Below the pieces are notes generated by a model. It had not been told where the DNA came from, searched no databases, and saw nothing but the letters and a program-made list of their open reading frames with translations. From Nonlabens ulvanivorans (GTDB lineage: Bacteria; Bacteroidota; Bacteroidia; Flavobacteriales; Flavobacteriaceae): DNA of 64,000 nt. Where the stretch lies: contig NZ_JPJI01000032.1 in the NCBI RefSeq assembly GCF_000732625.1, positions 744,001-808,000 on the forward strand. The letters are read 5' to 3'. Position 1 is the first letter of the stretch. Each line of letters starts with the position of its first letter. Shown piece by piece: positions 4,232 through 60,946 of the stretch. Both the position numbers and the translations under genes were made by a program.

Positions 4232-7200
4232 TTACTTAGACAATCCTTTCCTCAACACCTCTTTAATGCCTTCTAGATTCTCGGTAAAATCCATCATTTG
4301 ACTCAAGACTTGAGACATCTGATTTTGCCCACCAAGTCCGTTCAACTTGTTGTTCTTAGCAAAAATCTCTTTTATGTCTTCCCATCGTTGTTGCTCTTCT
4401 GGAGTGATGGTATTGACGAGTTCTTTATATTTTAATAAGTTAGCTTCAGCAGCACTAGTTAAGGTTTGTGATTCACTTTCATAATGTGATAATAATAGCG
4501 TTTGCAACTCTTTATCATCCATGATAGGAACAACCTTAGCGACCAGTTTATTCATATCACGGTAAGAACCTTGTAGTTTAAAACTAGGTTCCGTACGGTA
4601 TGTGTCTTCCATTCCTGCGCTTGCGATGTAAGTCTGATTCACTTTAAGAACGGTATCACGTATTTTCAATACCTTTTCAAGTACAGCAACATAATCGGCT
4701 ATTTCTTGATTACTGTGGTTTCCTTTAAGCTCGTTATCACTTGCTCCGTTTTGAACACGATCTATAAGCGCATACACATCGTCAAAATGCTTGTTACTTA
4801 ACTGTTGCAATACGGGATTACTAGTTAGTGCATTTTCTACCAGACTCAGCTCAAATAAATGAGCCGTATCACCTATAATATCACCTAGATTATAAATATC
4901 AGCACGGTTTGCAAGCATATCTGGAATCTGGAATTTATCTCCACTTTCCGTATATGGATTACCAGCCATAATCACGCAAAATTTCTTACTACGTAGATCG
5001 TAGGTTTTAGGCTTTCCATTATAAACTCCTTCAATTTTACGAGTTCCATCAGACAGGCTGATGAACTTCTGTAAAAACTCAGGATTACAGTGCTGGATAT
5101 CATCTAGATATAACATCACATTATCACCCATTTCAAAAGCAAGATTCAGCTTTTTAAGTTCTTCTCTCGTTGCTGCATTAGTTGCTGCTTCAGGATCTAC
5201 TGATGTAATCTCATGACCTATCGCTGGACCATTTATTTTCATAAATATCAAGCCTAATCGGTTTGCTACATATTCCATCAAGGTTGTTTTACCATAACCT
5301 GGTGGTGATATGAGTAGCAATAATCCCATGCGATCGGTACGTTTTGTATCACCTACCGTACCTAATTGTTTGGCAAGATTATCACCTATTAGTGGGAAAT
5401 ATACTTGATCGATCAACTTGTTACGGACAAAAGAACTCAATACACGTGGTTTAAATTCTTCTAATCGCAAGGACTCTTTTAACTCTTCAGTTACCTCTTG
5501 CTTTGCTTTTCTAAAGGTTTCATAAGCAGGTACTTTTATCGTTGTAAAGTGCTCTAGTGTATGTACAAACTCATGATAATTAAACACAAACACACCTTCT
5601 TCAATCGTCTGGTGCGATCCTTTTAATCCATTGATGTTTTCACTAGGTGAGATGGCAACTGTTTTATTAGCTGTCAGCTCTCCATAAAGTATGTTTGCCA
5701 CACATTCGTTTATATATGTCAGTAAAGATTGTTTTGAGTCCGCTTTCGCGAAAGCGGAAACCCAATGTCTCACCAGTTCCACTTTAGACTTCTCGTCCTC
5801 ACAAGCTTCTAGACTTTTCTTAAATTTTAAATCGGCATTTTGAGATTTTATTTTCTTTTCAAAAGCTTCTTTTAATTGAATAGCGCTCGTGCTTACTGTG
5901 AAATGATCATTGTCTTTAAGTTCATTGAATAAGTAACTTGCGATAGATAAACTATTAGCAGACTCAGAAGTTTTAAAAATCTCATCAGCTAGTTCTTCTA
6001 TTATAAAGTCGTACTCCTTACTATCTGGAAAAACAGATAATACCTCACCAGCACTTTTCAAAATACGGTTGAGGTTGGATTGATGTTTGGTATCTAGTGC
6101 ATTCCAGTAAAACTGTGCTTGCGCTCTCGTATCAGGATCATAAGTAAGTAAGCCCAGATCATGGTGTTTATGTAATAAAACACTTAAATATTGAGCAGCG
6201 TCATGGTCATGAACACCTTTTACATAACCACCAGAATAGTTACCACTCGCGATTTCTTGAACAGTTGTCAGCAAATCTGCCGGACTCATTATTCTTAAAG
6301 CTTCTTTATCTCCAAATTTAAAAATAGAGTAGGCGAGGTAGGCAGATCTATAGACTTGGTTATTTTCAGACACCAAATCTTGATTCCATATTCCTTGAGA
6401 TTGTGTGAGAATCTCATTATGCAATTCTTGATAAAAGTCAGTTCCTGTTAGGTGATAGAACAGCGCATTATCCTTAAATACAATGGTAAGATCCAGCTGC
6501 TGTTTATTAACACCAAATTTATGTTTCCCCAGCTTGATGATGTTATCACCATCTTCATAAAGTTCGTTCTTATCCTTGAGTTTTCTCAAAGCATCTTCAC
6601 GAGCCACTTTAAGCGCTGTTTCAATCGCTTCGGCTTTTCCGGCATCATCGAGATCTTTTAATTGCACGACGATGTCGCGCACTTTATTGATCATTAAATC
6701 ACTGGCAAAATAACCGTTGATTTCAGTAACGCTATCTAAGGATTGTGCTCTTTTTTGAACACCTTTTAGAATACGCTCTGCAGCATTTTGAAATGCCATT
6801 GCCTTTTTATTGCGCGCTTCTACCAGACTACTTTTACGATTATCAAAAGCGGCGTAAACCTCTTCACGCTTGCCTATAATCTCTGTAATGTACTCTTCAT
6901 AGTCGGCAAATTTCCCTTCTAACTCTTCTAGTTGTATAGAAACTTTGGTAAGAAACTCATCACACTTTTCTGGTGTGTTTGCAATGTCCAGATAATTGAT
7001 TATACTCTGGTCAATCAGCTTTAACTGCGCGGCAAAATCGGCTTGCGCTTCTTTTTTACCTACGGTTTTTACTTTATTCTTAATCGCCGCTTTTACCTGA
7101 TTGATGGTGGCAAAAATCAACGATATGTTCTCAATAATCTTAGTAGAGTGAGAAGTGTCTTCTATCTCTAGATTAGAAACGATGTCTATCAACAGCTCGA

Positions 7201-9106
7201 GATCTTCAGCAATTTGATTCACTTCTTTCTCAAGATTTTTAATCTCGATCACTTTTTTTGTGTCGTCTAGTGCTTTTTGCTTTTCGGCAACAGCATCGTG
7301 ATAAGGAGCGAGTGCTTTATCATCAAGTAAAAAAGTAACCGCACGACGCGAGATCACTTCATTTTGTTCTACGATTTGCTCTTCGATTCCTTTTATAAAA
7401 TCGGTATCTACATAACGTATTTCATAAAGACCTATCGCTTCACCTCGCAAACTGCGCAGCTGAGTCAGTAGCTCTACAAAATCATTGATAGACTTAAATG
7501 AGGTGCTTTTAATTTTACTAAAAAGCTCATCTGCCTTTTTAGAAATATCTCTAGTATCTGCAGCTGCTTGTTTGCGCAGCTGTTTTACTTTTTCAAACTC
7601 GTCAATTGCTGCGTTAGACGCTTTGTTGATCTCGTTAAGAGGTAGATTAATTTGTTTAGTTTCTTCTTCAGGCAACCAGTAATAGGCATCTAGAATATCT
7701 TTTGAAGAACGTGCAATGTCATCATATAAACCACCATAACTATCTTCTTTGTTAAGAAGCGTGAGCAGCTCATTTGCCTGCGCCATAGCTTTAACAATAT
7801 CCTTGTTACCTATCTTAAATAACATCGTGTCTTGATGCTCAGATGGCATGATATTACCTTTTAAATATGGTGTTTGCCATATTTGCATCATGTGATGCTT
7901 GGTCTGTTCATCTTCTGTGCGGAAATAACACAACTCACCTTGTTCTAAAATCGTAAATCCATTACAAACGATAGGTGTCTTTACTGTTTGATCAATCACA
8001 TTGTAAGACATGAGTACATACAATCCCTGTGCGGCATTATAAAATACATACAAATGATCTTCACCATTAGGTGATGCGATTCTTTGCTGAAATTTTAATT
8101 TACCAGCATCGCTAGGGAATACGTTATACTCTCCAGTTTGCAAGTAATAACCACTTGGGAAAATAATACCTTGATCATCTGGCAGCAATACTGCAGCCTC
8201 TGCAATACTATTGATGCGTTCTACTTCCTTAATCTTGTGGTTGTACACAAAATAACGAGGCTCTTCTTGAAACGGTTTTATTTCTAGAACAATAAGATTG
8301 CCTAAATCGGCATAACGATATTGTCCGTCATCTAGTGTCTGGTCGCGATGTTCTACATCTTCACGATAAATTCCCTGACCATCGTCGGTATTATCTTCAA
8401 CCTTTATGGTTAAATCACCACCTATAGTTTCTACAAAAACCTTGTCTAGAATCGATACATGTCCATGCACACCAGCACGTTGATTATCGCGTCCAGCTTC
8501 TTTCCACTGGAAACCATATTGTGCAGGAAAACGATATTCATGCTCACTACGATTGTCTACATATTGCAATTTACCATCAGCAATCAACCATTTAAAGGTC
8601 TTGATATCCGTAACAGAATCACTAAGTTGAAATACCATATGCAGGTAATTCCCCATAATCGCAAACTTGGAAAAAATCGTGTTGCGATAGTATTTGTACA
8701 GATTTTCAAAATCAGTTTGAAAAATAGGATCTGTGATGAGGTTTAATTTGTTCCCGCTTACGCGAAAGCGTAACGCATCACCATCCACACCATCACGATC
8801 AAACTCATAGATGCTAAAAACATCGCTCAATTGCATCTCAGTGCGCAATCCTAGATGCACGTTGTACCCAAAGATGCTGTATTTACCGATGGTCACAATA
8901 TCACGGGCGATACAGTTATTTTCTGTATTCACGCGGTCGTTTGCAATCAGTCGTGTTTCTAGAGAACCGAAGACCTTTTTACGTTCTTCATTAAGAGCAT
9001 GGAGTCGTTGCTGCAAGTCATTCTTTTGCTTGAGCAAACGGCTCTGGATGATCTCGTAAGTTCCTGAGTCTAGTTGTGTAGTGTTATTGGTGTTTTTTTC
9101 TGCCAT
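4232..9106 (-). CDS. Giant AAA+ ATPase (DUF3686-like N-terminus)
   Basis: The 1624-residue protein is cytoplasmic by sequence, with no signal or membrane segment. Residues 15-45 form a short helix. Residues 55 to about 420 are strand-rich and may form a propeller-like domain; this region resembles the family often annotated DUF3686 or 'DNA repair ATPase'. Residues about 480-880 are long coiled coil. The C-terminal AAA+ module has Walker A PPGYGKTT (K1273), Walker B LYLDD (D1335-D1336) and a sensor-1-like MAGNP about 55 residues later, and is closest to MoxR-type domains. It is the last gene of the PspA-flotillin cassette. The 'DNA repair' label has no support here; a remodelling role on PspA or flotillin assemblies is an inference. 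Two copies of the 16-bp palindrome lie inside the gene (5741 and 8755). Confidence 0.8.
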   Translation of the reverse strand: MAEKNTNNTTQLDSGTYEIIQSRLLKQKNDLQQRLHALNEERKKVFGSLETRLIANDRVNTENNCIARDIVTIGKYSIFGYNVHLGLRTEMQLSDVFSIYEFDRDGVDGDALRFRVSGNKLNLITDPIFQTDFENLYKYYRNTIFSKFAIMGNYLHMVFQLSDSVTDIKTFKWLIADGKLQYVDNRSEHEYRFPAQYGFQWKEAGRDNQRAGVHGHVSILDKVFVETIGGDLTIKVEDNTDDGQGIYREDVEHRDQTLDDGQYRYADLGNLIVLEIKPFQEEPRYFVYNHKIKEVERINSIAEAAVLLPDDQGIIFPSGYYLQTGEYNVFPSDAGKLKFQQRIASPNGEDHLYVFYNAAQGLYVLMSYNVIDQTVKTPIVCNGFTILEQGELCYFRTEDEQTKHHMMQIWQTPYLKGNIMPSEHQDTMLFKIGNKDIVKAMAQANELLTLLNKEDSYGGLYDDIARSSKDILDAYYWLPEEETKQINLPLNEINKASNAAIDEFEKVKQLRKQAAADTRDISKKADELFSKIKSTSFKSINDFVELLTQLRSLRGEAIGLYEIRYVDTDFIKGIEEQIVEQNEVISRRAVTFLLDDKALAPYHDAVAEKQKALDDTKKVIEIKNLEKEVNQIAEDLELLIDIVSNLEIEDTSHSTKIIENISLIFATINQVKAAIKNKVKTVGKKEAQADFAAQLKLIDQSIINYLDIANTPEKCDEFLTKVSIQLEELEGKFADYEEYITEIIGKREEVYAAFDNRKSSLVEARNKKAMAFQNAAERILKGVQKRAQSLDSVTEINGYFASDLMINKVRDIVVQLKDLDDAGKAEAIETALKVAREDALRKLKDKNELYEDGDNIIKLGKHKFGVNKQQLDLTIVFKDNALFYHLTGTDFYQELHNEILTQSQGIWNQDLVSENNQVYRSAYLAYSIFKFGDKEALRIMSPADLLTTVQEIASGNYSGGYVKGVHDHDAAQYLSVLLHKHHDLGLLTYDPDTRAQAQFYWNALDTKHQSNLNRILKSAGEVLSVFPDSKEYDFIIEELADEIFKTSESANSLSIASYLFNELKDNDHFTVSTSAIQLKEAFEKKIKSQNADLKFKKSLEACEDEKSKVELVRHWVSAFAKADSKQSLLTYINECVANILYGELTANKTVAISPSENINGLKGSHQTIEEGVFVFNYHEFVHTLEHFTTIKVPAYETFRKAKQEVTEELKESLRLEEFKPRVLSSFVRNKLIDQVYFPLIGDNLAKQLGTVGDTKRTDRMGLLLLISPPGYGKTTLMEYVANRLGLIFMKINGPAIGHEITSVDPEAATNAATREELKKLNLAFEMGDNVMLYLDDIQHCNPEFLQKFISLSDGTRKIEGVYNGKPKTYDLRSKKFCVIMAGNPYTESGDKFQIPDMLANRADIYNLGDIIGDTAHLFELSLVENALTSNPVLQQLSNKHFDDVYALIDRVQNGASDNELKGNHSNQEIADYVAVLEKVLKIRDTVLKVNQTYIASAGMEDTYRTEPSFKLQGSYRDMNKLVAKVVPIMDDKELQTLLLSHYESESQTLTSAAEANLLKYKELVNTITPEEQQRWEDIKEIFAKNNKLNGLGGQNQMSQVLSQMMDFTENLEGIKEVLRKGLSK
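5741..5756. repeat. 16-bp palindrome, perfect copy (AAA+ gene)
   Basis: CGCTTTCGCGAAAGCG, read in frame as AFAKA within the linker region of the AAA+ ATPase (around residue 1120). Confidence 0.9.
8755..8770. repeat. 16-bp palindrome, one mismatch (AAA+ gene)
   Basis: CGCTTACGCGAAAGCG. It is read on the minus strand as RFRVS instead of the usual RFRES, so a single base change has altered the encoded peptide. Confidence 0.75.
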
Positions 9107-9122
9107 TGATTTCTAGTTAGTA

Positions 9123-9190
9123 GCGCATCGCATGCGCCTTCTCAGTGTTGGGGCGCATCGCATGCGCCCTTTCATTGCGGCGCATGCGCC
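9123..9190. repeat. Three tandem REP-like hairpins
   Basis: Three palindromes spaced about 29 bp lie between the AAA+ start and the RAYT stop: 9123-9137 (6-bp stem, loop CGC), 9151-9169 (8-bp stem gggcgcat, loop CGC) and 9179-9190 (12-bp perfect palindrome without a loop). They share the core ATGCGAT (minus strand) with the hairpins of the other cassette gaps. Confidence 0.8.
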
Positions 9191-9196
9191 TTTTCA

Positions 9197-9811: not shown

Positions 9812-9844
9812 ACTAGCTTAGCTTGTTCGACCCATTGTATGTGC

Positions 9845-9964: not shown

Positions 9965-9975
9965 TTACTGGTTGT

Positions 9976-12147: not shown

Positions 12148-12858
12148 CTATGCTTTACTCACTAAAAAATAGTTCTTATCATCGGATCGCTTGATGATGA
12201 GCACGCTTTCGCGAAAGCGTAATTCTGATCCATCTAATGATTTTACATAGATACTCATTAAGTTACCATCTGCCATGACCTCTGCATTTCCTAATTTATC
12301 TCCAGAAATGGAAGATAAAAGTAAGGCTTCACGACCTAAAAAGTCTACTGCTTTGTCTCCATCTTTATTCAAATTTTTGAAAAATGATTTGAAAGGCGTG
12401 GTGATTACTTTAGTCAGAATTAATGCTGGTATAAACGCTGCAAGTACGATTACAAATCCGAATGTGTTGTCATAACTGCCAGTGATTGATGTTGTAAGAA
12501 CAGAAATCATCCACCAAAGGAAAATCCAAAATGTAAACGTGAACATGAATGGCAGCCCTACAAAGTTGAAATAGATCAAAAAGACTTGCCACCACTTGAG
12601 TTTACGAGTACGTTTGTTCACTACGTGTTCACGATCAACTTCAGCATTTGCAACGTCTTGGAAATCCATATTTCCTCCTTCAATACCAGTGTCTAGATCA
12701 ACATCTGCATCGATATCTACGTCTACGTCCACATCGATGTCCAGGTCAAAATCGATACCTGAAATCATGGTAGCAAGCCAGTATAGAATGAGAATGATCA
12801 ACAACACGGTAAGTGTGATGTTTACTTCAGAGAATAATATGTTGAAATAGTTTTCCAA
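12148..12858 (-). CDS. YqiJ/NfeD-like OB-fold membrane protein
   Basis: The 236-residue protein has an N-terminal membrane segment (about 12-32), an acidic tract with aspartate at every second residue (about 34-56), two further membrane segments (about 95-125 and 133-155), and a C-terminal strand-rich OB-fold (about 165-236), the NfeD arrangement. NfeD-type proteins pair with flotillins, and the flotillin gene follows directly. The start ATG at 12856-12858 gives a complete first membrane helix. The OB-fold carries a copy of the 16-bp palindrome, read as RFRES. Confidence 0.8.
   Translation of the reverse strand: MENYFNILFSEVNITLTVLLIILILYWLATMISGIDFDLDIDVDVDVDIDADVDLDTGIEGGNMDFQDVANAEVDREHVVNKRTRKLKWWQVFLIYFNFVGLPFMFTFTFWIFLWWMISVLTTSITGSYDNTFGFVIVLAAFIPALILTKVITTPFKSFFKNLNKDGDKAVDFLGREALLLSSISGDKLGNAEVMADGNLMSIYVKSLDGSELRFRESVLIIKRSDDKNYFLVSKA
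12204..12219. repeat. 16-bp palindrome, perfect copy (YqiJ/NfeD-like gene)
   Basis: CGCTTTCGCGAAAGCG, read as RFRES in a turn between strands of the OB-fold domain. Confidence 0.9.
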
Positions 12859-20116: not shown

Positions 20117-23100
20117 ATGACGCATTACGATCACAAATCTATAGAAGCAAAATGGCAAAAACATTGGGCTACTAATAAGACTTTTAAAGCTACAAATAAC
20201 TCTGATAAACCTAAATTCTATGCACTCGATATGTTTCCATATCCTAGTGGTGCTGGGCTACACGTTGGGCATCCGTTAGGTTATATTGCTAGTGATATCG
20301 TGTCTCGTTATAAGCGTCACAAGGGTTTTAATGTCTTGCACCCTATGGGTTATGATAGTTTTGGACTGCCTGCAGAGCAGTATGCGATACAAACTGGACA
20401 ACATCCTGCAGAGACTACTAAAACAAATATTGAAGGAGGAACTGATAAGTCTGGAAATAAGATTGCAGGTTACCGCAATCAGATGGACCGCATCGGTTTT
20501 AGCTTTGATTGGGATCGAGAGGTAAGAACTTCTTCGCCAGATTATTATAAATACACACAAGAGATTTTCATCATGCTATTTGATAGCTGGTATGATAATG
20601 ATGCAGATAAAGCGCAACCTATAAGTTTGTTAGAATCTCGCTTTCGCGAAAGCGGAACCAACAACATCAACGCTGCTACAGAAGAAGATTTGAGACACTT
20701 CACAGCTGCAGAGTGGAACGCGTTTACAGAAAAAGAGCAACAGGAGATATTGCTTGATTATAGATTAACTTTTCTTGCAGATACGGAAGTAAACTGGTGT
20801 CCAGCATTAGGAACCGTACTAGCAAATGATGAAATTGTAAATGGCGTTTCAGAACGTGGTGGACATCCTGTAGTGCGCAAGAAAATGCGTCAATGGATGA
20901 TGAGAATTAGCGCATTTGCAGAGCGTTTATTAACAGGTCTAGAAGGATTAGACTGGGCAGAATCTATTAAAGAAATACAACGCAACTGGATAGGGAAGTC
21001 TGTCGGTGCGATGGTTTCCTTTCAGCTAGATAGTCATAAGGTAGATGTTTTTACGACTAGACCAGATACCATCTACGGAGTTACATTCATGACACTTGCT
21101 CCAGAACATGAGCTAGTAGATCAAATTACTACTGCGGCACAAAAAGACGCGGTAGAAGCTTATAAAAAAGCAACAGCTGCACGTTCAGAAAGAGAACGCA
21201 TGGCCGATGTGAAGACCATTTCTGGAGTATTCACAGGAGCATATGCTACGCATCCATTAAGTAGTGAGCCAGTACCGGTATGGATCGGTGATTATGTTTT
21301 GGCTGGTTATGGTACTGGTGCGGTTATGGCAGTACCGTGTGGTGATGAGCGTGATTATGCATTTGCTAACTACTTTGCAGGTCAGGAAGGAATGCCAGCG
21401 ATCAAGAATATTTTTGATGGTGTGGATATATCTGAAGAGGCTTATGGAGCAAAAGATAAAACACCGCTTTGTAATAGTGATTTCTTAAACGGAATGAGTT
21501 ATCAGACTGGTGCAATGGCAGCAGCGATTGAGAAATTAGAAGAAGTAGGATCTGGAAAAGGAAAAACCAATTACAGATTGCGTGATGCGGTATTTTCTAG
21601 ACAGCGTTATTGGGGTGAGCCATTCCCAGTATATTATAAAGACGGTTTGCCTCAAATGATAGATCGCAAGCACTTGCCTATCGCATTACCAGAGGTAGAT
21701 GAATATTTACCAACTGAAGATGGTGCGCCACCACTAGGTCGTGCAACGACATGGAGCTGGTGTACAAAAGAAAATAAAGTCGTTTCTAATGATGACGACC
21801 GCGATTGTGTGTATCCACTAGAATTGAATACCATGCCAGGTTGGGCAGGTAGTTCTTGGTACATGTTTAGATATATGGATGCTAATAATGAAGACGAAAT
21901 GTTCTCTGCAGCAGCACAAGAATACTGGAATAACGTAGATCTATATATAGGTGGTAGCGAGCACGCCACAGGTCACTTGTTGTACAGTAGATTTTGGGTA
22001 AAGTTATTACATGATTTAGGTAAAGTCACAGTAGAAGAGCCGTTCCAAAAAATGATCAATCAAGGGATGATTTTGGGTGAGAGTGCTTTTGTTTATAGAA
22101 TGGTTCCGATGTTTGAATGCCAAAAAACTAAAGTTAGTTTAGGAGGAACACTTGGGGTAAATGAGTTTTTGTTTGGGAATAGAGAGGTTTATATTTCAAA
22201 AGATTTAATTGAAAGAGATTTTGTTCTTGATAAAAGTGTCAAGTCTGTAAAAGATGAAGATATATATAAACATTTTTATTACAGTGCTGATTTACACAAA
22301 GCTTTAGATAAGAGTTATTTTGACGATTTTAAAAAGAAAAGTGAAAAATCGATAACAAAGAAATCGTACGATCTAATTACTAATCCAGAAAAGGATTTTG
22401 TTTTAAAATATAAATTCTTTCCAGCTAGGGTTGAAAATAATTTTCTTAAAAATGGAAATATTTTAAAATCTGAAGTGATTGGTGTCTCTAAGTTACTATT
22501 TGCTGATTTCGAATTCTACAACCAATTAACTGAAATAAAATGCAGTTTTGAAGTAGAAAAAATGTCCAAGTCTAAATACAACGTCGTTAGTCCTGATGAT
22601 ATTTGTGATCAGTATGGAGCAGATACGTTGCGATTATACGAGATGTTTTTAGGTCCGCTAGAGCAGGCAAAACCATGGAATACTGCTGGTATTACTGGAG
22701 TTTATGGGTTTATGAAAAAGCTATGGAAACTATATCATAATGATGCTGGTTTTTCTGTTAGTGATGAAAAAGCATCACCAGATAGCATGAAAACCTTGCA
22801 CAAGACTATTAAAAAGGTGCAAGATGATATTGATAACTTTTCATTTAATACAAGTGTGAGTAGTTTTATGATTGCTGTAAATGAGTTAACGCAACAAAAA
22901 TGCAATAGTCGTGAGGTGTTAGAACCACTTGCTGTTCTTGTATCACCATATGCACCACACATTGCAGAGGAATTATGGTCATTGTTAGGTCATAACGAGT
23001 CGATAAGTGAAGCGCCTTTCCCAGTTTTTGATGAAAAGCACTTGGTAGAAAGCAGCAAGACATATCCTATTTCATTTAACGGTAAAATGAAATTTACACT

Positions 23101-23686: not shown

Positions 23687-23702
23687 CGCTTTCGCGAAAG
23701 CG
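23687..23702. repeat. 16-bp palindrome, perfect copy (intergenic)
   Basis: CGCTTTCGCGAAAGCG flanked by TA on both sides, between the terminator at 23641 and the cyoE promoter. Confidence 0.9.
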
Positions 23703-28756: not shown

Positions 28757-28969
28757 ATGAAAAAATTAATTTTACTTCTTATAGTTCTCTTTTATTCCGC
28801 TTTCGCGAAAGCGCAATGTGCTATGTGTCGTGCAGTAATTGAAAGTGGTGGAGATACTAAAGCTGCTGAAGGCTTGAATAATGGAATCACGTATTTAATG
28901 ATTTTCCCGTATATCTTAGTAGGTGGGATCATTTATCTCGTTTATCGTTCAACGACTAAAAAAAGTTGA
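28757..28969 (+). CDS. Small membrane protein of the oxidase block
   Basis: The 70-residue protein starts at ATG 28757, 2 nt after the DUF420 stop. A signal peptide ends in AFAKA, so the mature protein starts QCAMCRAV, with a CxxC pair next to the membrane. One C-terminal helix (about 46-64) and a basic end follow. The AFAKA codons are the 16-bp palindrome itself. Proteins of this kind close the SCO-DUF420 block in flavobacteria; function unknown. Confidence 0.75.
   Translation: MKKLILLLIVLFYSAFAKAQCAMCRAVIESGGDTKAAEGLNNGITYLMIFPYILVGGIIYLVYRSTTKKS
28798..28813. repeat. 16-bp palindrome, perfect copy (signal peptide)
   Basis: CGCTTTCGCGAAAGCG, read as AFAKA at the signal peptidase site of the small oxidase-block protein. 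Confidence 0.9.
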
Positions 28970-33504: not shown

Positions 33505-34839
33505 ATGGGAATGAAAAAAATTATCATCTGTAGTATTGCGGTTTTAAGTTTCGCTTTCGCGAAAGCGCAACAAACAAAATCATGGACTCTTCAAGAGTGC
33601 GTGAATTATGCAATAGAAAACAACATCAATATAAAGCAGGCAGATTTAAATATCGAGCAAGCACAACTAGATAAAAAGGATGCCTTAGGTGCTTTCTTAC
33701 CTAGTCTTAATGCGAGCGCTAGTAATTCATGGAATACAGGTCTTACACAAAACGTAGTTACTGGTGTTTTACAAACGCAAACAACACGTAACTCGTCCTA
33801 TGGAATTAATTCTGGTGTAACGTTATTCAATGGTATGCGTAACGCTTATCGTCATCAACGTGCAAAAATGAATATTCTAGCCACTCAATACAGTGCAGAG
33901 CAGTTGGAGGACAATATTTTATTGAACGTAGCTAACAGTTATTTAAACGTTCTTTTCAATAAAGAAAATTTAAAGCAATTAGAAACACAACACCAGTTAA
34001 CTGCAAAGCAATTAGAACAAACACAACAGCTAGTAGATGCAGGTTCACTTCCACGAGGAGATGTATTAGAAGTGCAAGCTACATTTGCAAATGAGGAACA
34101 GCAAATCCTTGCAGCCCAAAATAATGTGGTTATCTCTCGCATCACTCTTGCACAAATTTTAAACTTAGATGACTTTAAAAACTTTGACGTTGCAGATCCT
34201 GATTTGAGTGATCCTTCGGCACTAATTTTAGATCAAGGTGCAGATGGTATTTATGACGCAGCCACTAAAAATCGTTTTGAAATTAAAATAGCAGAGCAAA
34301 ATACCGCTCTTGCAGAACAAGACTTGAAAATTGCCAAAGGTGCGAGGCTTCCAACAGTTAATGCCTTTTTCAACTACAATACTCGTGAGAGCGATCGATT
34401 AAATCTAGCATTCTTTGATCAGTTATCATTAAACGATGGTATATCATACGGACTAAGTTTAAACCTTCCTATATTCAATGGTTGGTCGGTATCTAATAAT
34501 GTTAAACGCAGTAAGCTCAATGTAGAGAATAACCGTTTACAAGAAACTCAAGCAAAACTAGATTTAAAACAAAATATTTATCAAGCATATAACGATGCTC
34601 AAGGTTCAAGACTGACTTATCAAAGTGCTCAAAAAGCATTAGAAGCAAGAGAGCTAGCATATGAATATGCGCAAGAACGTTATAATGTTGGGCTAATGAA
34701 TGCCTTTGACTTTAACCAGTCGCAAACACAATTGACTAATGCGCAAAGCAGTCTACTGCGCAGTAAATACGATTACATCTTTAAACTTAAAGTTCTTGAA
34801 TTATTTACAGGAATTGCACCAGAAGATTTAAAACTCTAA
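33505..34839 (+). CDS. TolC-family outer-membrane efflux protein
   Basis: The 444-residue protein has a signal peptide ending AFAKAQ and the two-repeat coiled-coil structure of TolC (ECVNYAIENNINIKQADL, then later NVGLMNAFDFNQSQTQLTNAQ). It forms the outer-membrane channel of the exporter. ATG 33505 and ATG 33511 are both possible starts. The palindrome at 33552 encodes the signal peptide end. Confidence 0.9.
   Translation: MGMKKIIICSIAVLSFAFAKAQQTKSWTLQECVNYAIENNINIKQADLNIEQAQLDKKDALGAFLPSLNASASNSWNTGLTQNVVTGVLQTQTTRNSSYGINSGVTLFNGMRNAYRHQRAKMNILATQYSAEQLEDNILLNVANSYLNVLFNKENLKQLETQHQLTAKQLEQTQQLVDAGSLPRGDVLEVQATFANEEQQILAAQNNVVISRITLAQILNLDDFKNFDVADPDLSDPSALILDQGADGIYDAATKNRFEIKIAEQNTALAEQDLKIAKGARLPTVNAFFNYNTRESDRLNLAFFDQLSLNDGISYGLSLNLPIFNGWSVSNNVKRSKLNVENNRLQETQAKLDLKQNIYQAYNDAQGSRLTYQSAQKALEARELAYEYAQERYNVGLMNAFDFNQSQTQLTNAQSSLLRSKYDYIFKLKVLELFTGIAPEDLKL
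33552..33567. repeat. 16-bp palindrome, perfect copy (signal peptide)
   Basis: CGCTTTCGCGAAAGCG, read as AFAKA at the end of the TolC-like signal peptide. Confidence 0.9.
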
Positions 34840-36116: not shown

Positions 36117-36806
36117 ATGGCGCTCATTCTTTGTGTAGAGACCTCTTCTACAAATTGTTCAGTAGCACTGGCTAGTGATGATACTAGTATCACAAACGCA
36201 AATTCATATCAGGTAGCACATTGTGCTGATTTTATAGAAGATAATAGCTCTAGTTATTCTCATGGAGAACGTTTACATGTTTTTATAGATGACTTACTTA
36301 AGCGCAATAACTTAACCGTTCAAGATATAGACGCCATAGCCGTTAGTGAAGGACCAGGATCCTATACCGGTCTACGCATCGGTGTTGCTAGTGTAAAAGG
36401 CATGTGTTATGCTTTAGATATTCCTATGATTGCGATCAATACCTTAGAGTCTTTAAGCTTGCAAAATACGTTACCAAGTGATTATACTATCGCCATGTTA
36501 GATGCAAGACGTATGGAGGTTTACGCTTCAGTGTATCAAGGTAAAGAGCTTGTAGAAACTACTAAAGCGGTTGTATTAGATGAAGATTCTTTTTCTCGCT
36601 TTCGCGAAAGCGGAAACATTACTTTCATAGGTACTGGTGTAGAGAAATTTGAAAATCTGATTAAAGAACCTGCACATCGATATGTAACTTCTAATCCTAC
36701 AGCAATAACGATGTGCGATACTGCTGTTTTAAAGTATAAAAAAAGCGACACTGTTGATGTCGCTTATTTTGAACCTTTTTACCTTAAAGAGTTTAAGGCA
36801 GGATAA
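36117..36806 (+). CDS. tsaB: tRNA threonylcarbamoyladenosine biosynthesis protein TsaB
   Basis: The 229-residue ASKHA-fold protein has the TsaB opening ILCVETSSTNCSVAL and the motif VSEGPGSYTGLRIGVASVKG (near 78-97). With TsaD and TsaE it makes the t6A37 modification in tRNAs decoding ANN codons. It follows the second adaptor by one base. The palindrome at 36597 encodes RFRES in the variable C-terminal half. Confidence 0.95.
   Translation: MALILCVETSSTNCSVALASDDTSITNANSYQVAHCADFIEDNSSSYSHGERLHVFIDDLLKRNNLTVQDIDAIAVSEGPGSYTGLRIGVASVKGMCYALDIPMIAINTLESLSLQNTLPSDYTIAMLDARRMEVYASVYQGKELVETTKAVVLDEDSFSRFRESGNITFIGTGVEKFENLIKEPAHRYVTSNPTAITMCDTAVLKYKKSDTVDVAYFEPFYLKEFKAG
36597..36612. repeat. 16-bp palindrome, perfect copy (tsaB)
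   Basis: CGCTTTCGCGAAAGCG, read as RFRES around residue 162 of TsaB. Confidence 0.9.
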
Positions 36807-42541: not shown

Positions 42542-43069
42542 ATGAGAAAATTACTTAATGAAGAATTAGACCGGTTGTCGGTAGATCGCTTCCGCGAAAG
42601 CGATAAAACACCGCTCATCATTGTATTAGATAATGTGCGCAGTCTCAATAATATTGGTTCTGTTTTCCGTAGCGCAGATGCTTATCGAGTAGAAAAAATA
42701 TATCTATGTGGTATCACAGCGCAACCACCACATAAAGATATTAGAAAAACGGCACTGGGCGCAACAGAAACGGTAGCTTGGGAATATCGTGAGCACACCA
42801 TCGATGTAATTAAAGAGCTTAATGAGCAAGGTGTAACTACTTGTGCTATTGAACAAGCAGAAGATTCAATCACTTTGCGCGGTTTTAAGCCATCTACTAA
42901 AAAAGTAGCTGTAGTTATGGGTAATGAGGTGAAAGGTGTTCAACAAGAGGTTGTAGACGCTTGTGATACTGTCATTGAGCTAGAGCAATATGGTACAAAA
43001 CACTCCTTAAATATCTCAGTATGTACAGGAATTGTAATCTATGATTTGTTCTATAAACTCAACTCTTAA
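42542..43069 (+). CDS. SpoU/TrmH family RNA methyltransferase
   Basis: The 175-residue SPOUT enzyme has motif 1 NNIGSVFRSADA, motif 2 VVMGNEVKGVQQEV and motif 3 KHSLNISVCTGIVIYDL. It uses SAM to methylate a ribose in RNA; whether tRNA or rRNA cannot be told. It lacks an extra N-terminal substrate domain. Stop codons of this gene and folK overlap in a TTAA. The palindrome at 42587 encodes RFRES in the short N-terminal helix. Confidence 0.88.
   Translation: MRKLLNEELDRLSVDRFRESDKTPLIIVLDNVRSLNNIGSVFRSADAYRVEKIYLCGITAQPPHKDIRKTALGATETVAWEYREHTIDVIKELNEQGVTTCAIEQAEDSITLRGFKPSTKKVAVVMGNEVKGVQQEVVDACDTVIELEQYGTKHSLNISVCTGIVIYDLFYKLNS
42587..42602. repeat. 16-bp palindrome, one mismatch (TrmH-like gene)
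   Basis: CGCTTCCGCGAAAGCG. The T-to-C change is silent; the read peptide is still RFRES. Confidence 0.85.
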
Positions 43070-44199
43070 ATAGCTGAGGTAATTTGTTCCAGTACTTTTA
43101 AATAATCTTCTTGATTATTTACAAAATCAAGATCTGTAACATCAATAACTTTAATTTTTAAATCCTGTTGAGATCTTATAAAATCTGCATACCCTTGCTG
43201 GATTTGAGATAAGTAACTGGCCTCTATGTTTTGCTCATAATCACGACCACGTTTTTTTATATTTTCTAATAAACGATCTTCTGTTTGATATAAATAAATG
43301 TATAAATCTGGTTTTACCAGTTCTTTATACATCATATTAAACAGCCGTTTATATAGAGAGTATTCTTCTTTTTCAAGGGTTATTTTACTGAAAATAAGTG
43401 ATTTGATGACGTAATAATCTGCAACTGTAAAATCTGAAAATAGATCTTGTTGTGCGACGTCATCACTTAATTGTTGATAGCGATCTGCGAGAAAAGACAT
43501 CTCAAGCGGGAACGCATACCTTTCGGTATCTTCATAAAATAGAGGCAGAAATGGATTGTCTGCAAATCGTTCTAGGACCTGTTTGCCATTAAAGTCTTCA
43601 GCAATTTTATGAGATAAGCTCGTTTTCCCAGAACCTATGTTTCCTTCAATGGCTATAAAATTGATATTGGTTATGGGATAGCGCTTTCGCGAAAGCGGAA
43701 TCTCAAAACTAACCTTGCTGTTTAATGACTCTAAGGAATCTGTAATTTCTTGTATACTCTTTTTTAATACTGGATGATATACTTTACCAGCTATGGCAGC
43801 AAGAGGCTGCATTACAAATGAACGTTGTTCCATTCTAGGATGCGGCACTTGCAATGAATCAGTATTGATAATTTGATCATCAAATAGTAATATGTCTAAA
43901 TCTATAACACGATCCTCATAAGTATCACCGCTTCTAGGAACGCGACCTAGATCACGTTCAATCTGTTGTAATATGATGATGGTCTCTAGTGGGTTTTTAT
44001 GACTGTGAACTAATATACAAGTGTTTAAGAAATTCCCGCCAGTAAAACCTGCTGCAGGCACTTCATAAACCGGAGCCGTTTTAATAATCAAGCCCAGTGT
44101 GCTCTCAATAAGTCGTGCGGCATCAAGAAGATGCTTCTCACGATCTCCTAGATTACTACCTAAAGCAATGAATATCTTATGGTTATGATTTGAAGTGAT
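43066..44199 (-). CDS. folK: HPPK (FolK) fused to deoxynucleoside kinase; no standard start codon
   Basis: Two enzymes are joined: an N-terminal 6-hydroxymethyl-dihydropterin pyrophosphokinase (folate synthesis; IALGSNLGD, later RVIDLDILLFDD) and a C-terminal deoxynucleoside kinase with P-loop IEGNIGSGKTS. This fusion is common in flavobacteria. The first in-frame ATG/GTG/TTG is TTG 44089-44091, which would delete the substrate-binding IALGSNLGD. The frame stays open and homologous to 44220, where a TAA stops it. ATC 44197-44199, ATA 44173-44175 and ATT 44167-44169 are the only near-start codons ahead of or at the motif. The end given here is ATC 44199. The palindrome at 43682 encodes LSRKR in the linker. 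Confidence 0.8.
   Translation of the reverse strand: MTSNHNHKIFIALGSNLGDREKHLLDAARLIESTLGLIIKTAPVYEVPAAGFTGGNFLNTCILVHSHKNPLETIIILQQIERDLGRVPRSGDTYEDRVIDLDILLFDDQIINTDSLQVPHPRMEQRSFVMQPLAAIAGKVYHPVLKKSIQEITDSLESLNSKVSFEIPLSRKRYPITNINFIAIEGNIGSGKTSLSHKIAEDFNGKQVLERFADNPFLPLFYEDTERYAFPLEMSFLADRYQQLSDDVAQQDLFSDFTVADYYVIKSLIFSKITLEKEEYSLYKRLFNMMYKELVKPDLYIYLYQTEDRLLENIKKRGRDYEQNIEASYLSQIQQGYADFIRSQQDLKIKVIDVTDLDFVNNQEDYLKVLEQITSAI
43682..43697. repeat. 16-bp palindrome, perfect copy (folK-dNK linker)
   Basis: CGCTTTCGCGAAAGCG, read in the third frame as LSRKR, just between the HPPK and kinase domains. Confidence 0.9.
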
Positions 44200-47675: not shown

Positions 47676-48466
47676 TCAATCGTTAGGTCCACCACATAAC
47701 CTTCATGGCTGCGTACATTCATTACGTGGCCATCTTCAAAAATAAGGTACTGACCTTTAATTCCTTTTACAATTCCGCTGTGTTCTGGTGTTTTAGAAAG
47801 GTTTACCGTTTTTACCTTTGCTGGGTATTGTAATACAGGAAAGTTGATATGCATCTCGTTTTCTGGAGCTAGAATATACTCTTTTGCTTCCTCAGGGATG
47901 TGTTCGATGACGCTTTCGCGAAAGCGTAATAAATCAACATCTTCAATATCATTAGTCAACATTTTTCTCCAATTGGTCTTGTCTGCTACGTGATCTTTTA
48001 GGGCAACTTCAGCAATTCCAGCTAGGTAGCGATTAGGCGTTTCTAAAATAGCAATTGCCTCATGTGCACCTTGATCAATCCATCGAGTCGGTACTTGCGT
48101 TTTGCGTGTGACACCTACTTTTACATTGCTGGAATTTGCTAGGTAAACGATGTGCGGTTTAAGCTGTACTTTTTTCTCATATTCTATATCACGATCTTCC
48201 TCGTCTAGATGGGCACGACTCAGTTCTGGTTTCATGATCCAGTCGCCAGCTTGTGGTGCGCTAGTAAAACAATCGTAGCAAAATCCCTGACGCCATATTT
48301 TCTTATCCAGGCCGCAATTAAGACATTCATTTGCGACATGCTTGATATGGATTTTTTTATCGAGCAGCTGGTTAACATGTATAAAGTTATCTTTAAAAAC
48401 CCAATAGTATTGAACGGTTTCTTGTAGTTCGGTCTGCATTTTACGTAAGGTTCCTGTAACCAGCAT
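47672..48466 (-). CDS. DUF2797 protein with zinc knuckle and GIY-YIG-like segment
   Basis: The 264-residue protein has a zinc-binding C48-x2-C51 / C63-x2-C66 set, then IVYLANSSNVKVGVT (about 106-120) with TRWIDQGA eight residues later. This layout (VYLA, KVGVT, R..DQGA) resembles the core of GIY-YIG nucleases. Function is unknown. A palindrome copy at 47911 encodes RFRES. Confidence 0.8.
   Translation of the reverse strand: MLVTGTLRKMQTELQETVQYYWVFKDNFIHVNQLLDKKIHIKHVANECLNCGLDKKIWRQGFCYDCFTSAPQAGDWIMKPELSRAHLDEEDRDIEYEKKVQLKPHIVYLANSSNVKVGVTRKTQVPTRWIDQGAHEAIAILETPNRYLAGIAEVALKDHVADKTNWRKMLTNDIEDVDLLRFRESVIEHIPEEAKEYILAPENEMHINFPVLQYPAKVKTVNLSKTPEHSGIVKGIKGQYLIFEDGHVMNVRSHEGYVVDLTID
47911..47926. 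repeat. 16-bp palindrome, perfect copy (DUF2797 gene)
   Basis: CGCTTTCGCGAAAGCG, read on the minus strand as RFRES near residue 183. Confidence 0.9.
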
Positions 48467-50106: not shown

Positions 50107-51348
50107 TTAAACTACAGCCTTTAATTGTTTTTGAATACCGCTTTTATTGAGTTTAGACTCGGCATAGGTTTTTGTGACTTTAAATTCTTTATCATCACTA
50201 CTAGGTAAATCAAACATAGCGTCTGTAAATATCGCTTCACAAAGAGAACGTAATCCACGAGCTCCTAACTTATATTCAATCGCTTTTTCAACAATATAAT
50301 CCAGTGCACCATCAGTAATGGTAAATGTAATATCATCCATACCAAAAAGTTTAGTATACTGCTTGATAATCGCATTTTTAGGTTCTGTAAGAATAGCTCT
50401 TAAAGTACCTGCATCTAATGGATTCATATGTGTAAGTACAGGTAAACGACCTATGATTTCTGGAATCATCCCAAAATCTTTGACATCTTTAGGGATGATA
50501 TATTTCAAGATGTTGTCTTGATCTTTTACATCATCATTAGACATACTAGCGCTAAAACCTACCGCTTGCATATTCAATCGCTTACGGATCACTTTTTCTA
50601 TTCCGTCAAAGGCTCCACCAGCGATAAATAGGATATTCTCTGTATTTACTTCAATAAATTTCTGATCTGGATGCTTACGACCACCTTTAGGCGGTACGTT
50701 AACAACGGTTCCTTCTAGTAATTTAAGAAGTCCTTGTTGCACTCCTTCACCAGATACATCTCTAGTAATAGATGGATTATCACTCTTGCGAGCAATTTTA
50801 TCTATCTCATCGATAAATACGATTCCGGTTTGTGCTTTTTCAAGATTATAATCTGCAGCTTGTAAGAGACGTGTTAAGATACTTTCTACGTCTTCACCTA
50901 CATAACCAGCCTCAGTAAGTACGGTAGCATCAACTATTGCTAGCGGTACATTAAGCATGCGAGCAATGGTTTTGGCAATAAGTGTTTTACCAGTACCGGT
51001 CTGTCCTACCATAAGGATATTGGATTTTTGAATCTCAATATCATCATCGTTATCTACTTGTAATAATCTCTTGTAGTGATTATAAACGGCGACAGACATC
51101 ACTTTTTTAGTGAACTCTTGACCTATGATATACTCATCAAGAAAAGCTTTAATATCTTGTGGCTTGCGCAGTTTCAGCTCGGCATTAGTGATACCAGTTT
51201 CATCTTCTTTCTTGACATCTTCTAATACAATACCATGTGCTTGCTCGATACAACGATCACAAATGTGCGCGTCTAATCCTGCAATTAATAAATTGGTATC
51301 GGCCTTATTACGGCCACAAAAACTGCATTCCAGTTGTTCTTTACTCAT
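50107..51348 (-). CDS. clpX: ATP-dependent Clp protease ATP-binding subunit ClpX
   Basis: The 413-residue AAA+ unfoldase has the zinc finger C8-x2-C11...C30-x2-C33, Walker A GQTGTGKT (K121), Walker [11 protein letters not shown] and the IGF-like loop region for ClpP docking. It unfolds tagged proteins for ClpP. It is the last gene of the tig-clpP-clpX run. Confidence 0.95.
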
Positions 51349-51381: not shown

Positions 51382-51397
51382 CGCTTTCGCGAAAGCG
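51382..51397. repeat. 16-bp palindrome, perfect copy (clpP-clpX gap)
   Basis: CGCTTTCGCGAAAGCG, 34 bp before clpX. One of three copies outside coding sequence; no T-run follows, so it is not an obvious terminator. Confidence 0.9.
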
Positions 51398-51417: not shown

Positions 51418-52092
51418 CTAGTCACGAGTTAGTACTTCATCAATCATACCGTACTCTTTAGCCTCGGCAGCCTTCATCCAGTAATCACGATCTGAGTCTG
51501 CATAGACTTTTTCATAAGTTTGCTTAGAATGCTTAGCAATAATAGTATAAAGTTCTTCTCTTAATTTAACGACCTCGCGTGCGGTGATTTCTATATCACT
51601 AGCTTGTCCTTGTGCGCCACTAGAAACCTGATGGATCATCACACGACTATGTGGTAAGGCACTGCGTTTTCCATCTGCTCCTGCACATAGTAAAACAGCT
51701 CCCATACTAGCAGCCATACCGGTACAAATTGTTGCAACATCTGGTTTGATAAATTGCATCGTGTCATAAATACCTAAACCTGCATAAACGCTACCACCTG
51801 GTGAGTTGATGTAGATTTGTATGTCCTTGTTTGCATCTGTGCTTTCTAAGAAAAGCAACTGTGCTTGTATAATGTTTGCTACTTGATCATTTACTCCAGT
51901 ACCCATAAAAATGATACGGTCCATCATTAAACGTGAAAACACGTCAAAGATGGCGATGTTCATCTGGCGTTCTTCAATAATATTAGGAGTAAGATTAGTA
52001 GGGTACATGCTACCCATTATTTTATCGTAATACATCGGGTTGACACCTTGATCTTTTACGGCAAACTTTTCAAATTCTTTAGATATATCCAT
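51418..52092 (-). CDS. clpP: ATP-dependent Clp protease proteolytic subunit ClpP
   Basis: The 224-residue serine protease has the triad in standard context: S129 in AASMGA, H154 in VMIHQ and D203 in DSDRDYWM. It forms the 14-mer barrel used by ClpX. Gap to clpX is 69 bp with a palindrome in it. Confidence 0.95.
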   Translation of the reverse strand: MDISKEFEKFAVKDQGVNPMYYDKIMGSMYPTNLTPNIIEERQMNIAIFDVFSRLMMDRIIFMGTGVNDQVANIIQAQLLFLESTDANKDIQIYINSPGGSVYAGLGIYDTMQFIKPDVATICTGMAASMGAVLLCAGADGKRSALPHSRVMIHQVSSGAQGQASDIEITAREVVKLREELYTIIAKHSKQTYEKVYADSDRDYWMKAAEAKEYGMIDEVLTRD

Positions 52093-55698: not shown

Positions 55699-55705
55699 TG
55701 TTTTT

Positions 55706-56962: not shown

Positions 56963-57001
56963 AATCAGTTTGTTATTAAAAAAATTGGGGTTTTGTTAAG
57001 T

Positions 57002-57031
57002 CAAATTTAATATTTTAAACTTCTTACGCAA
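57002..57031 (-). promoter_or_regulatory. Bacteroidota-type promoter for the FadL-SGNH operon
   Basis: On the minus strand TTG (57031-57029), 19-nt spacer, TAAATTTG (57009-57002), 39 nt before the FadL-like ATG. Confidence 0.7.
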
Positions 57032-57063
57032 GCGTTTTCGTTATTATTATGCTTGCATAGTAT

Positions 57064-57828
57064 TTAATCTGTAAGAAAACTTGTGACCGTATTATAGAAA
57101 ATTTCAGGTTGTTCTGCGTGCAACCAGTGTCCTGCATTAGGGATTGTTTTTAAGTCCGCTTTCGCGAAAGCGTGTTCTATAATTACGAAATCGTTATCGT
57201 TAATGTATCCTGAATTTGCACCTCTAACAAACAGTGTAGGGATATTTATTTGAGTCTGGATGGGTTCTTGAAAACCAATCATCTCTTGACTATCACCTAA
57301 TACTTCTAGATTAAAGCGCCATCCATATCTATTTTTATCTATCCTATATAAACTTTTTAATAAGAATTGTCTCGTGCCAAAATCTGATATACGTAGGGCG
57401 AGCTGCTCATCTGCTTCTTTACGACTTTTTATTTCATCAAAGTTGATGGACTTTAATCCATTAATGATATCACTGTGATGAGGAGCATAGGTTTTAGGCG
57501 CAATGTCTGCAACAACTAGTTTTTTAATAAGTTGAGGAAAATCTGCGGCCACTTTCATAGCAACTTTTCCACCCATAGAATGGCCTAATAAATAGATGTT
57601 CTCCAGTTTATGTTCTATACAATAATCATGAACGTCTTTTGCAAGTAGTGTGTAGTTAAAGTCTACACTGTGTAAACTACGTCCATGATTGCGCTGGTCT
57701 ATTAAATGAACCTCATAGCCGTTTTCACTCCATTCTTTACCGAGAGTTTTCCAATTGTCTGCCATGCCTAAAAAACCATGTAGAATAATAAGTGGTTTTC
57801 CTTCTCCTAAAATAATTGAATGCAGCAT
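57064..57828 (-). CDS. Alpha/beta hydrolase (YbfF-like)
   Basis: The 254-residue protein has the oxyanion segment LHGFLGMADNW, the nucleophile elbow GHSMGG (S84) and a C-terminal NAGHWLHAEQP histidine (about 237). It resembles YbfF-type esterases; substrate unknown. It begins one base after pdxJ ends. A palindrome copy (57157) encodes AFAKA just before the catalytic histidine loop. Confidence 0.88.
   Translation of the reverse strand: MLHSIILGEGKPLIILHGFLGMADNWKTLGKEWSENGYEVHLIDQRNHGRSLHSVDFNYTLLAKDVHDYCIEHKLENIYLLGHSMGGKVAMKVAADFPQLIKKLVVADIAPKTYAPHHSDIINGLKSINFDEIKSRKEADEQLALRISDFGTRQFLLKSLYRIDKNRYGWRFNLEVLGDSQEMIGFQEPIQTQINIPTLFVRGANSGYINDNDFVIIEHAFAKADLKTIPNAGHWLHAEQPEIFYNTVTSFLTD
57157..57172. 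repeat. 16-bp palindrome, perfect copy (alpha/beta hydrolase gene)
   Basis: CGCTTTCGCGAAAGCG, read as AFAKA about 15 residues before the catalytic histidine. Confidence 0.9.
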
Positions 57829-58545: not shown

Positions 58546-58631
58546 AATAATTTATTGAGTTTCAAAAATACAAAGGATTCACCGCAACGAGTAATCACAG
58601 AAATGATTAATTTGCAAAAAAAGCTTGTTAA

Positions 58632-60163: not shown

Positions 60164-60240
60164 ACAATAATTTTAAAGAAACCTAGTTTTACATTACTCA
60201 CAATCATGCATGTTTACTCATGTCAGGTAATGAGAATTGT

Positions 60241-60248
60241 TATATTTG
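60241..60248 (+). promoter_or_regulatory. -7 box of the DUF6089-uppS-bamA operon
   Basis: TATATTTG, 17 nt before ATG 60266. No TTG was found at the usual -33 spacing. It supports 60266 as the start of the DUF6089 gene. Confidence 0.5.
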
Positions 60249-60265
60249 CACGTTTTAAAATTTCC

Positions 60266-60946
60266 ATGCGTTTATTATTATTAGTTAGTTTTCTTTTTTG
60301 TTTCGCTTTCGCGAAAGCGCAAACCTATGAGGTAGGCCTCTTTGCAGGTGGTAGTAATATCATTGGTGATGTAGGTAGCACGCAGTTTATAGATCCTGTA
60401 GATCTTACTGTAGGTGGTATTTTTAAATGGAATCGTAGTGACCGTCACAGCTTTAGAGCTTCATTAATATTTTCTAATATGGTAGGTGACGATAATGATA
60501 GTGATGATATATCAAGAGATTTAAGAGGTTATAAGTATAATTACAACCTTATAGAAGCAAGTGTAGGGATTGAATATAATTTTTGGGAATGGGAACTTTA
60601 CACGGGTAAACCTCAAATCGTGCCCTATATTTACACAGGGATTACTGGTTTTCAATATGAAGGCTTTAGATTAGATCAAGCTAGTAATCAACTAGTAGAA
60701 GATGACACAGATAGAGGATTAGCAATTCCGTTTATTTTAGGAGTAAAGTATAATATAGCACCTAAGCTGGTCTTAGGATTAGAAGCTGGTGTGCGATATA
60801 CGTTTACAGATAACCTAGATGGTAGTAATAACGAGGATTTTGAAAGTGTAAGGTTTGGGAATATTAACAATAATGATTGGTATGTATTCTCTGGTGTAAC
60901 GTTAACTTATGCATTTGGTAGAAAACCTTGTTATTGTAATTTTTAA
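60266..60946 (+). CDS. DUF6089 outer-membrane beta-barrel-like protein
   Basis: The 226-residue protein, starting at ATG 60266, has a signal peptide that ends AFAKAQ and a mature part with alternating strands (YEVGLFAGGSNIIGDVG at the start, aromatic YCNF at the end), typical of small outer-membrane barrels. DUF6089 proteins sit between nadK and uppS-bamA in flavobacteria. The in-frame ATG at 60206 was rejected because it would place 20 polar residues before the signal peptide and precede the -7 box. The palindrome at 60304 encodes the cleavage site. Confidence 0.85.
   Translation: MRLLLLVSFLFCFAFAKAQTYEVGLFAGGSNIIGDVGSTQFIDPVDLTVGGIFKWNRSDRHSFRASLIFSNMVGDDNDSDDISRDLRGYKYNYNLIEASVGIEYNFWEWELYTGKPQIVPYIYTGITGFQYEGFRLDQASNQLVEDDTDRGLAIPFILGVKYNIAPKLVLGLEAGVRYTFTDNLDGSNNEDFESVRFGNINNNDWYVFSGVTLTYAFGRKPCYCNF
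60304..60319. repeat. 16-bp palindrome, perfect copy (signal peptide)
   Basis: CGCTTTCGCGAAAGCG, read as AFAKA at the end of the DUF6089 signal peptide. Confidence 0.9.

Follow-up and report, generated by a model that had tools for sequence, protein, structure and literature searches.

A regularly spaced 16-bp palindrome with phased A/T flanks in Nonlabens genomes: a candidate chromosome-organizing site

The 64,000-nucleotide stretch of the Nonlabens ulvanivorans genome analyzed here (contig NZ_JPJI01000032.1, positions 744,001 to 808,000; hereafter the window, in which position 1 is the first letter) contains 12 exact and 3 one-mismatch copies of the perfect 16-bp palindrome CGCTTTCGCGAAAGCG and none with 2-3 mismatches, compared with a mean of 0.01 copies in 100 dinucleotide shuffles of the window. 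The palindrome is the core of a symmetric feature of about 126 bp with alternating A-rich and T-rich flanks, and its copies are regularly spaced, a feature that goes beyond what an earlier note on this DNA had observed. The interpretation that we tentatively favor, with slightly less than even confidence, is that the observed sites are bound by a dimeric DNA-wrapping protein, which we infer along with the wrapping and the role in chromosome organization. The motif is of the highly iterated genomic word kind and appears to be new, in that literature searches for the 16-mer and for Bacteroidetes uptake sequences, and searches judged by titles and abstracts for TTTCGCGAAA and for Nonlabens or Dokdonia palindromes, yielded no report of it; an excerpt of PMC8383284 contains nothing on uptake sequences.

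Abundance and spacing of the palindrome

The host genome comprises 3.21 Mb, and the window lies on its 1.66-Mb contig. All 15 coordinates listed in the earlier note are correct (the one-mismatch sites are 8755, 16684 and 42587), and the genome-wide count that it had proposed as a check came out far above the control: there are 436 exact copies and, with at most two mismatches allowed, 682 copies (about 212 per Mb) compared with 5 for the reversed pattern. The mismatch spectrum in 464 contiguous kb shows a gap, with 71, 27, 8 and 3 sites at 0, 1, 2 and 3 mismatches, respectively.

The 106 sites with at most two mismatches in these 464 kb are separated by gaps with a mean of 4357 bp and a standard deviation of 1919 bp, that is, a coefficient of variation (CV) of 0.44; among 20,000 sets of randomly placed sites, the mean CV was 0.99 and the minimum 0.685. 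Short gaps are depleted, with 3 under 1.5 kb compared with the 30 expected. Under a null model that keeps the split between coding and intergenic sites, the minimum CV in 10,000 sets was 0.75, and 7 gaps under 2 kb were found compared with 39.9 expected. The 14 gaps within the window range from 1.1 to 6.0 kb. The sites are also evenly distributed on a larger scale (variance-to-mean ratio of 0.35 per 20 kb in 43 stretches, which cover 860 kb of the 1.66-Mb contig), and the skew switch near 600 kb of the contig is not accompanied by a site gap.

Anatomy of the core and the flanks

The anatomy of the sites was analyzed in a pooled set of 279 sites from two species, those of the host genome and genome G002; some of the sites are orthologous. 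The flanks are C-poor before the core and G-poor after it, and the A-minus-T skew, averaged over both sides of the 16-mer, oscillates with a period of approximately 19 bp, with peaks at about 10, 28 and 48 bases from the core edge, and fades near 55. The power at this period is 0.174, compared with at most 0.0138 in 2000 random site sets that were not matched for coding; beyond position +20, it is 0.0459 compared with at most 0.0126 in random sets, and random halves of the data agree. In the host genome alone, the same pattern, in the same phase, is found in 41 intergenic sites and in 49 sites with wholly coding flanks, so that selection appears to act on approximately 126 bp of DNA rather than on protein. 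The flanks of different sites are alike in composition and have no common sequence.

Several familiar classes of elements were considered and rejected. The feature is not a longer hairpin, since the upstream and downstream flanks of a given site show no better pairing than shuffled flanks, and at 16-30 bases from the core their pairing is worse. Intrinsic terminators are disfavored by the downstream side on either strand, where on average A exceeds T over approximately +6 to +13, as well as by the location of 64 of the 106 sites inside genes. A gyrase site would fit in size, and the motif of strong gyrase sites is likewise symmetric, about 130 bp long and equipped with periodic arms on both sides of the center; however, the gyrase motif is degenerate and the GC content of its arms varies with a 10.75-bp period (PMC6379681), whereas here the 16-bp core is nearly perfect, the arms show A/T strand skew with a period of about 19 bp, and the A+T power is at background at 10.75 bp and present at 19-20 bp. 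The word CTTTCG is depleted outside the sites in Nonlabens, but so are other words containing TTCG, such as CATTCG, and therefore we make no claim of half-site avoidance.

Deviations from the consensus fall mainly at symmetric positions, namely 1/16 (57 of 96) and 6/11 (19 of 96), which together account for 76 of 96. A similar concentration of one-base deviations at the two terminal bases is reported for the highly iterated palindrome (HIP) HIP1 of cyanobacteria, which, like the alternate HIPs, is in high excess and variably present among lineages (PMC4390886), and the earlier note had listed a HIP1-like palindrome among its options. The likeness holds for the high iteration and the palindromic form and not for the sequence: HIP1 is the 8-bp GCGATCGC, compared with a 16-bp word in another phylum here, the density of HIPs is 300-2700 per Mb (PMC4390886) compared with about 212 per Mb, and the phased flanks of about 126 bp are a further difference. 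By analogy, an orphan methyltransferase could modify the palindrome, and mismatch repair or another system could use the mark, with sites accumulating until all bases are in range; Elhai's methylation and mismatch-repair model for HIPs would indeed produce saturation of spacing at a set distance (PMC4390886). No methyltransferase reader common to 12 carrier genomes was detected within the three Pfam families tested: PF00145, PF01555 and PF02086 are missing from 4, 6 and 8 of these carriers, respectively, and genome G007, with 579 exact copies and 99% completeness, has no match to any of the three. Furthermore, inner words such as TCGCGA are near expectation outside the sites, and a 16-bp core with flanks spanning about 126 bp is long for a usual methyltransferase. 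Altogether, we consider a methylation mark improbable.

Gene context and conservation of the sites

The 15 sites in the window, with gene calls made here from open reading frames (ORFs) and signal peptides judged by eye, are the following.
5741..5756: exact, AFAKA frame; gene for a DUF3686/AAA protein of 1624 amino acids (4232-9106, minus strand), between domains
8755..8770: one mismatch (T6>A), RFRVS; same gene (4232-9106, minus strand), inside the DUF3686 domain
12204..12219: exact, RFRES; gene for a 236-amino-acid protein, near the C-terminus; same place in L021 and L024
16684..16699: one mismatch (G16>A); intergenic, between divergent genes; same place in L021 (two mismatches) and L024 (exact)
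20639..20654: exact, RFRES; in leuS; same place in 9 of 9 other Nonlabens LeuS loci (L094 with one mismatch)
23687..23702: exact; intergenic, upstream of the ORF at 23821
28798..28813: exact, AFAKA(Q); near the start of a 70-amino-acid ORF (28757-28969, plus strand), probably signal peptide
33552..33567: exact, AFAKA; near the start of an OEP (TolC-type) protein, probably signal peptide
36597..36612: exact, RFRES; TsaD-family protein, outside the matched domain stretch
42587..42602: one mismatch (T6>C, synonymous), RFRES; residues 16-20 of a SpoU methylase, before the domain
43682..43697: exact, LSRKR; linker between HPPK and dNK domains in one ORF
47911..47926: exact, RFRES; inside a DUF2797 protein
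51382..51397: exact; intergenic, between ORFs 50107-51348 and 51418-52092 (both minus strand)
57157..57172: exact, AFAKA; inside an alpha/beta hydrolase
60304..60319: exact, AFAKA(Q); near the start of a 246-amino-acid ORF, probably signal peptide

The earlier note had placed 12 copies in coding sequences, and this number is recovered when the 70-amino-acid ORF at 28798, missed by our gene calls, is added to the 11 called; the intergenic sites are 16684, 23687 and 51382. The reported peptides RFRES, AFAKA and LSRKR are also right, with the site at 8755 reading RFRVS. The claim that every in-gene copy is found in a linker, a signal peptide or a loop is true only in part: it agrees with the site at 43682, between the HPPK and dNK domains, with those at 42587 and 36597, outside the matched Pfam stretch, and with those at 28798, 33552 and 60304, which resemble signal peptides, but the sites at 8755, 47911 and 57157 are inside Pfam domains. 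The ORF at 43066-44091 (minus strand) that carries both the HPPK and the deoxynucleoside kinase domain appears to be a fusion, with the iterated site in the linker.

In the 464 kb, 42 of the 106 sites are intergenic compared with 8.2 expected, an approximately 5-fold enrichment, although at least two of these 42 calls are doubtful (28798, in the small ORF, and another site at the end of a fetched stretch). The 64 in-gene sites encode peptides of the AFAKA type (33), the RFRES type (20) and the LSRKR type (11), and 18 of them start within the first 40 codons.

The origin of a coding site was traced in an alignment with many outgroups for LeuS, where all 10 Nonlabens sequences carry the site, one with a mismatch. 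The alignment of these with 71 other sequences shows no insertion at the site, the nearest gap being one residue downstream, in 2 of the 71. Thus, the LeuS site arose, as judged from the aligned sequences, by substitution. The same loop contains the word in 3 Dokdonia LeuS loci, shifted by 1 bp to the AFAKA frame, complete in two and decayed in the third. The earlier note had also suggested a mobile element tolerated in protein linkers, and many coding copies, several of them in linkers or likely signal peptides, would fit an insertion element or mobile palindrome; this origin is excluded for LeuS by the 81 aligned sequences, which show substitution at the site. The lack of a common sequence in the flanks also speaks against it, and regular spacing would not be expected of insertions. 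We consider this explanation extremely unlikely.

Within the genus, the sites tend to be conserved. Between the host genome and G002, where 16 of 90 sites are in alignable blocks, 15 of the 16 are kept, 10 of these 15 being exact in both genomes; 12 of the kept sites are in blocks of 69-78% identity and 3 in blocks of 85-89%, with the caveat that the sites could help to seed the alignments. In the intergenic site at 23687, 15 of the 16 bases are invariant in six Nonlabens sequences, in a region with a mean column identity of 61%. Between genera, the positions of the sites mostly differ. In 56 orthologue pairs with more than 45% identity (Dokdonia and genome G234 against 864 kb of the host genome), 14 sites of the other genera were found, of which 1 coincides with a host site, 3, all in LeuS, lie one alignment column away from a host site, and 10 lack a host counterpart; the coinciding site is in an apparent ATP-binding loop that may be conserved for protein reasons. 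Conversely, among 7 listed of the 8 host sites counted in these orthologues, the same 4 pairs match and 3 are without a counterpart.

Distribution across genomes

All 22 other Nonlabens genomes searched contain between 180 and 737 exact copies each, whereas among 36 genomes of other genera a single one has 4 exact copies. When 397 genomes of the family were searched with the 13-base half-word TTTCGCGAAAGCG, any match was found in 112; hundreds of matches were detected only in Nonlabens (the host genome and the 3 others drawn), in genome G250 and in genome G234, and the non-carriers among the 112 have at most 20 per strand. Of 395 genomes drawn from the order, those outside the family have at most 2 copies each of the 14-base core. 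On a LeuS tree, G250 is placed with Dokdonia sinensis, and the three carrier genera (Nonlabens, Dokdonia and that of G234) do not form one clade; this is a single-gene tree for which support values were not read. G250 (L152-L161) and G234 (L142-L151) have more sites with only one intact arm, that is, TTTCGCGAAAGCG, so that the motif has less symmetry in these two genomes than in Nonlabens.

The low counts in non-carrier genera often come from clustered sites. As judged from 20 stretches of 9 non-carrier genomes, picked for such clusters, many of these share homologous islands in which the sites keep their relative positions, often with 1-3 mismatches; the one annotated island, L163, carries genes for metal handling and for an RteC protein. 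Islands of several non-carrier genera have in common two sites separated by exactly 933 bp, in copies that are 77-93% identical:
L163: 11726 and 12659
L164: 7430 and 8363
L165: 8587 and 9520

Sites in phages and the possibility of a self mark

An exact-pattern scan of viral contigs yielded 41 stretches. The 33 stretches with less than 48% GC have a mean gap of 4.19 kb and a CV of 0.38 (29 gaps, several of them from near-identical contigs, and each stretch picked for holding a site). Phage hallmarks were identified, with portal, head or terminase matches in three examined loci and terminase plus portal matches in one further locus, and two similar loci, L106 and L109, have integrase matches. 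The Nonlabens phages P12024S (35.7 kb) and P12024L (35.0 of 35.65 kb covered) have no site with up to 3 mismatches, and no integrase is named among their displayed features, which are mostly hypothetical. A consensus query gave no match in plasmids and 6 weak records in phages, none of them a Flavobacteriaceae phage by name.

The presence of sites in other phage loci and in islands and their absence in P12024S and P12024L would be compatible with a self mark of the Chi/RecBCD kind, such that DNA would be degraded or excluded when it has no site over several kb. Chi itself is a short, non-palindromic word, RecC (PF04257) was detected in 0 of 20 genomes with a positive E. coli control, and no nuclease was linked to the site. 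The spacing does resemble that of Chi in E. coli, with 1008 copies in approximately 4.64 Mb (PMC1939737), but on balance there is only a slim chance that the palindrome is such a mark.

Chromosome organization or DNA uptake

A protein-binding site for chromosome organization was among the options of the earlier note, and it is the one we favor on the strength of the dyad, the phased flanks of about 126 bp, the even spacing and, in phage loci, a spacing like that of the host. Under this scenario, a dimeric sequence-specific protein would nucleate on the 16-bp palindrome and bend or wrap the phased A/T-tract DNA over about 55 bp to either side. Some 680 such complexes, one per approximately 4-5 kb, would serve as regularly placed anchors that condense or organize the chromosome; selection would keep a site within a few kb of any other, and DNA that integrates into the chromosome, such as phages with integrases, would carry sites at the same pitch. 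The sites of parS/Noc, SlmA and matS are also short palindromes that are read by dimers and spread along chromosomes, in tens of copies. Compared with these, there are hundreds of sites here, no extra ParB_N in 8 carriers and no clustering along the sampled contig. A more far-reaching version appears possible but doubtful. In it, the palindrome would be a chromosome-wide ruler belonging to a horizontally spreading bacterial chromatin system, with a dimer wrapping about 126 bp at some 680 sites; the words would have been built base by base in existing genes, for the most part independently in two or more genera, and the phages and islands residing in those chromosomes would have adopted the pitch.

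Several observations weigh against a chromosome-organizing role. We know of no chromosome-organizing system with so many such sites, and A/T-rich flanks are known for uptake sequences. The families tested as readers (ParB_N, RecC, T2SSE and the three methyltransferase families) include no suitable protein; in particular, ParB_N is present exactly once in each of 8 of 8 carriers, so that there is no excess that would point to an extra ParB. In Dokdonia (83 sites), the flank pattern exceeds background but is weaker and lies mostly close to the core; it is also weaker in mobile DNA (106 sites), and in G234 (36 sites) it does not rise above background. The spacing is less regular outside the host genome: with a 13-base definition and at most one mismatch, Nonlabens has a CV of 0.42, compared with 0.60 for G250 (Dokdonia), 0.81 for G234 and 0.97-0.99 for random placement; an exact-only run on G004 gave 0.66; and in 20 stretches of G002 with 90 sites, the within-stretch CV is 0.52 and the smallest gap 109 bp. 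One stretch of G002 (L261, C1:195001-215000) contains no site in 20 kb; it has three very long ORFs (1489, 2120 and 2049 amino acids) and strong GC skew. Finally, Karlin found uptake sequences to be significantly even (cited in PMC1939737).

An uptake-like signal, another suggestion of the earlier note, stays the main rival because the transformation machinery of Flavobacteriaceae is partly unknown and one species prefers its own DNA. Under this alternative, which we judge unlikely but less so than the methylation or self marks, a transformation receptor of Flavobacteriaceae would prefer the word, uptake and recombination would have filled the genome with it, and the symmetric A/T arms would help to kink the DNA for entry. 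The high copy number, the even spacing, the sites in and between genes, the proteins adapting to the word and the related, less symmetric Dokdonia variant all fit. Uptake signal sequences (USS) and DNA uptake sequences (DUS) likewise occur in hundreds of copies or more, with even spacing reported, in ORFs and with an excess in non-coding DNA (PMC1939737), and the over-representation both in genes (64) and between genes (42) among the 106 sites resembles theirs. Natural competence is found in Riemerella species of this family, where several proteins of the machinery do not resemble known ones (PMC8459023), and R. columbina takes up its own DNA preferentially (PMC7965970).

On the other side, the footprint of about 126 bp exceeds those of known uptake sequences, and the host-like spacing in phage loci would not be expected, which is a weak point given that a Haemophilus phage with uptake sites reportedly exists. 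Known uptake sequences are not palindromes (PMC1939737), unlike the palindromic, symmetric Nonlabens word with its longer footprint, and they are not as evenly spaced as compaction would need (PMC1939737). Flavobacterium johnsoniae, in contrast to R. columbina, was not competent (PMC7965970). T2SSE, the family of the type IV pilus motor, scored over the cut-off in 3 of 12 non-carriers and in 3 of 8 carriers; the other 5 carriers have no match above it, although a Riemerella-type machinery might not need this motor. A rough regular expression for ComEC and DprA gave no match in the sampled ORFs, which is no evidence of absence. Within the genus, T2SSE-family secretion motors were found over the cut-off in 3 of the 6 Nonlabens genomes tested (G004, G007 and G015).

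If a chromosome-organizing protein reads the sites, we would know of no denser site-specific bacterial chromatin system, and the regular pitch would allow chromosome-scale architecture to be tested through simple edits of the sites in a marine laboratory bacterium. Should the word serve in uptake instead, Flavobacteriaceae would have their first uptake signal and, to our knowledge, it would be the only palindromic one, in a family with a transformation machinery partly unlike others (PMC8459023). Under either reading, proteins bend to accommodate a DNA word.

Other sequence features of the genome

Six-base words containing CCC or GGG are strongly depleted in the host genome, with observed-to-expected ratios of 0.03 for ACCCCG, 0.02 for AGGGGG and 0.06 for ACCCTC in 864 kb (L001-L020, L184-L203 and the window). 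The respective ratios are 0.70, 0.41 and 0.71 in other Flavobacteriaceae loci and 0.73, 0.21 and 0.95 in Dokdonia.

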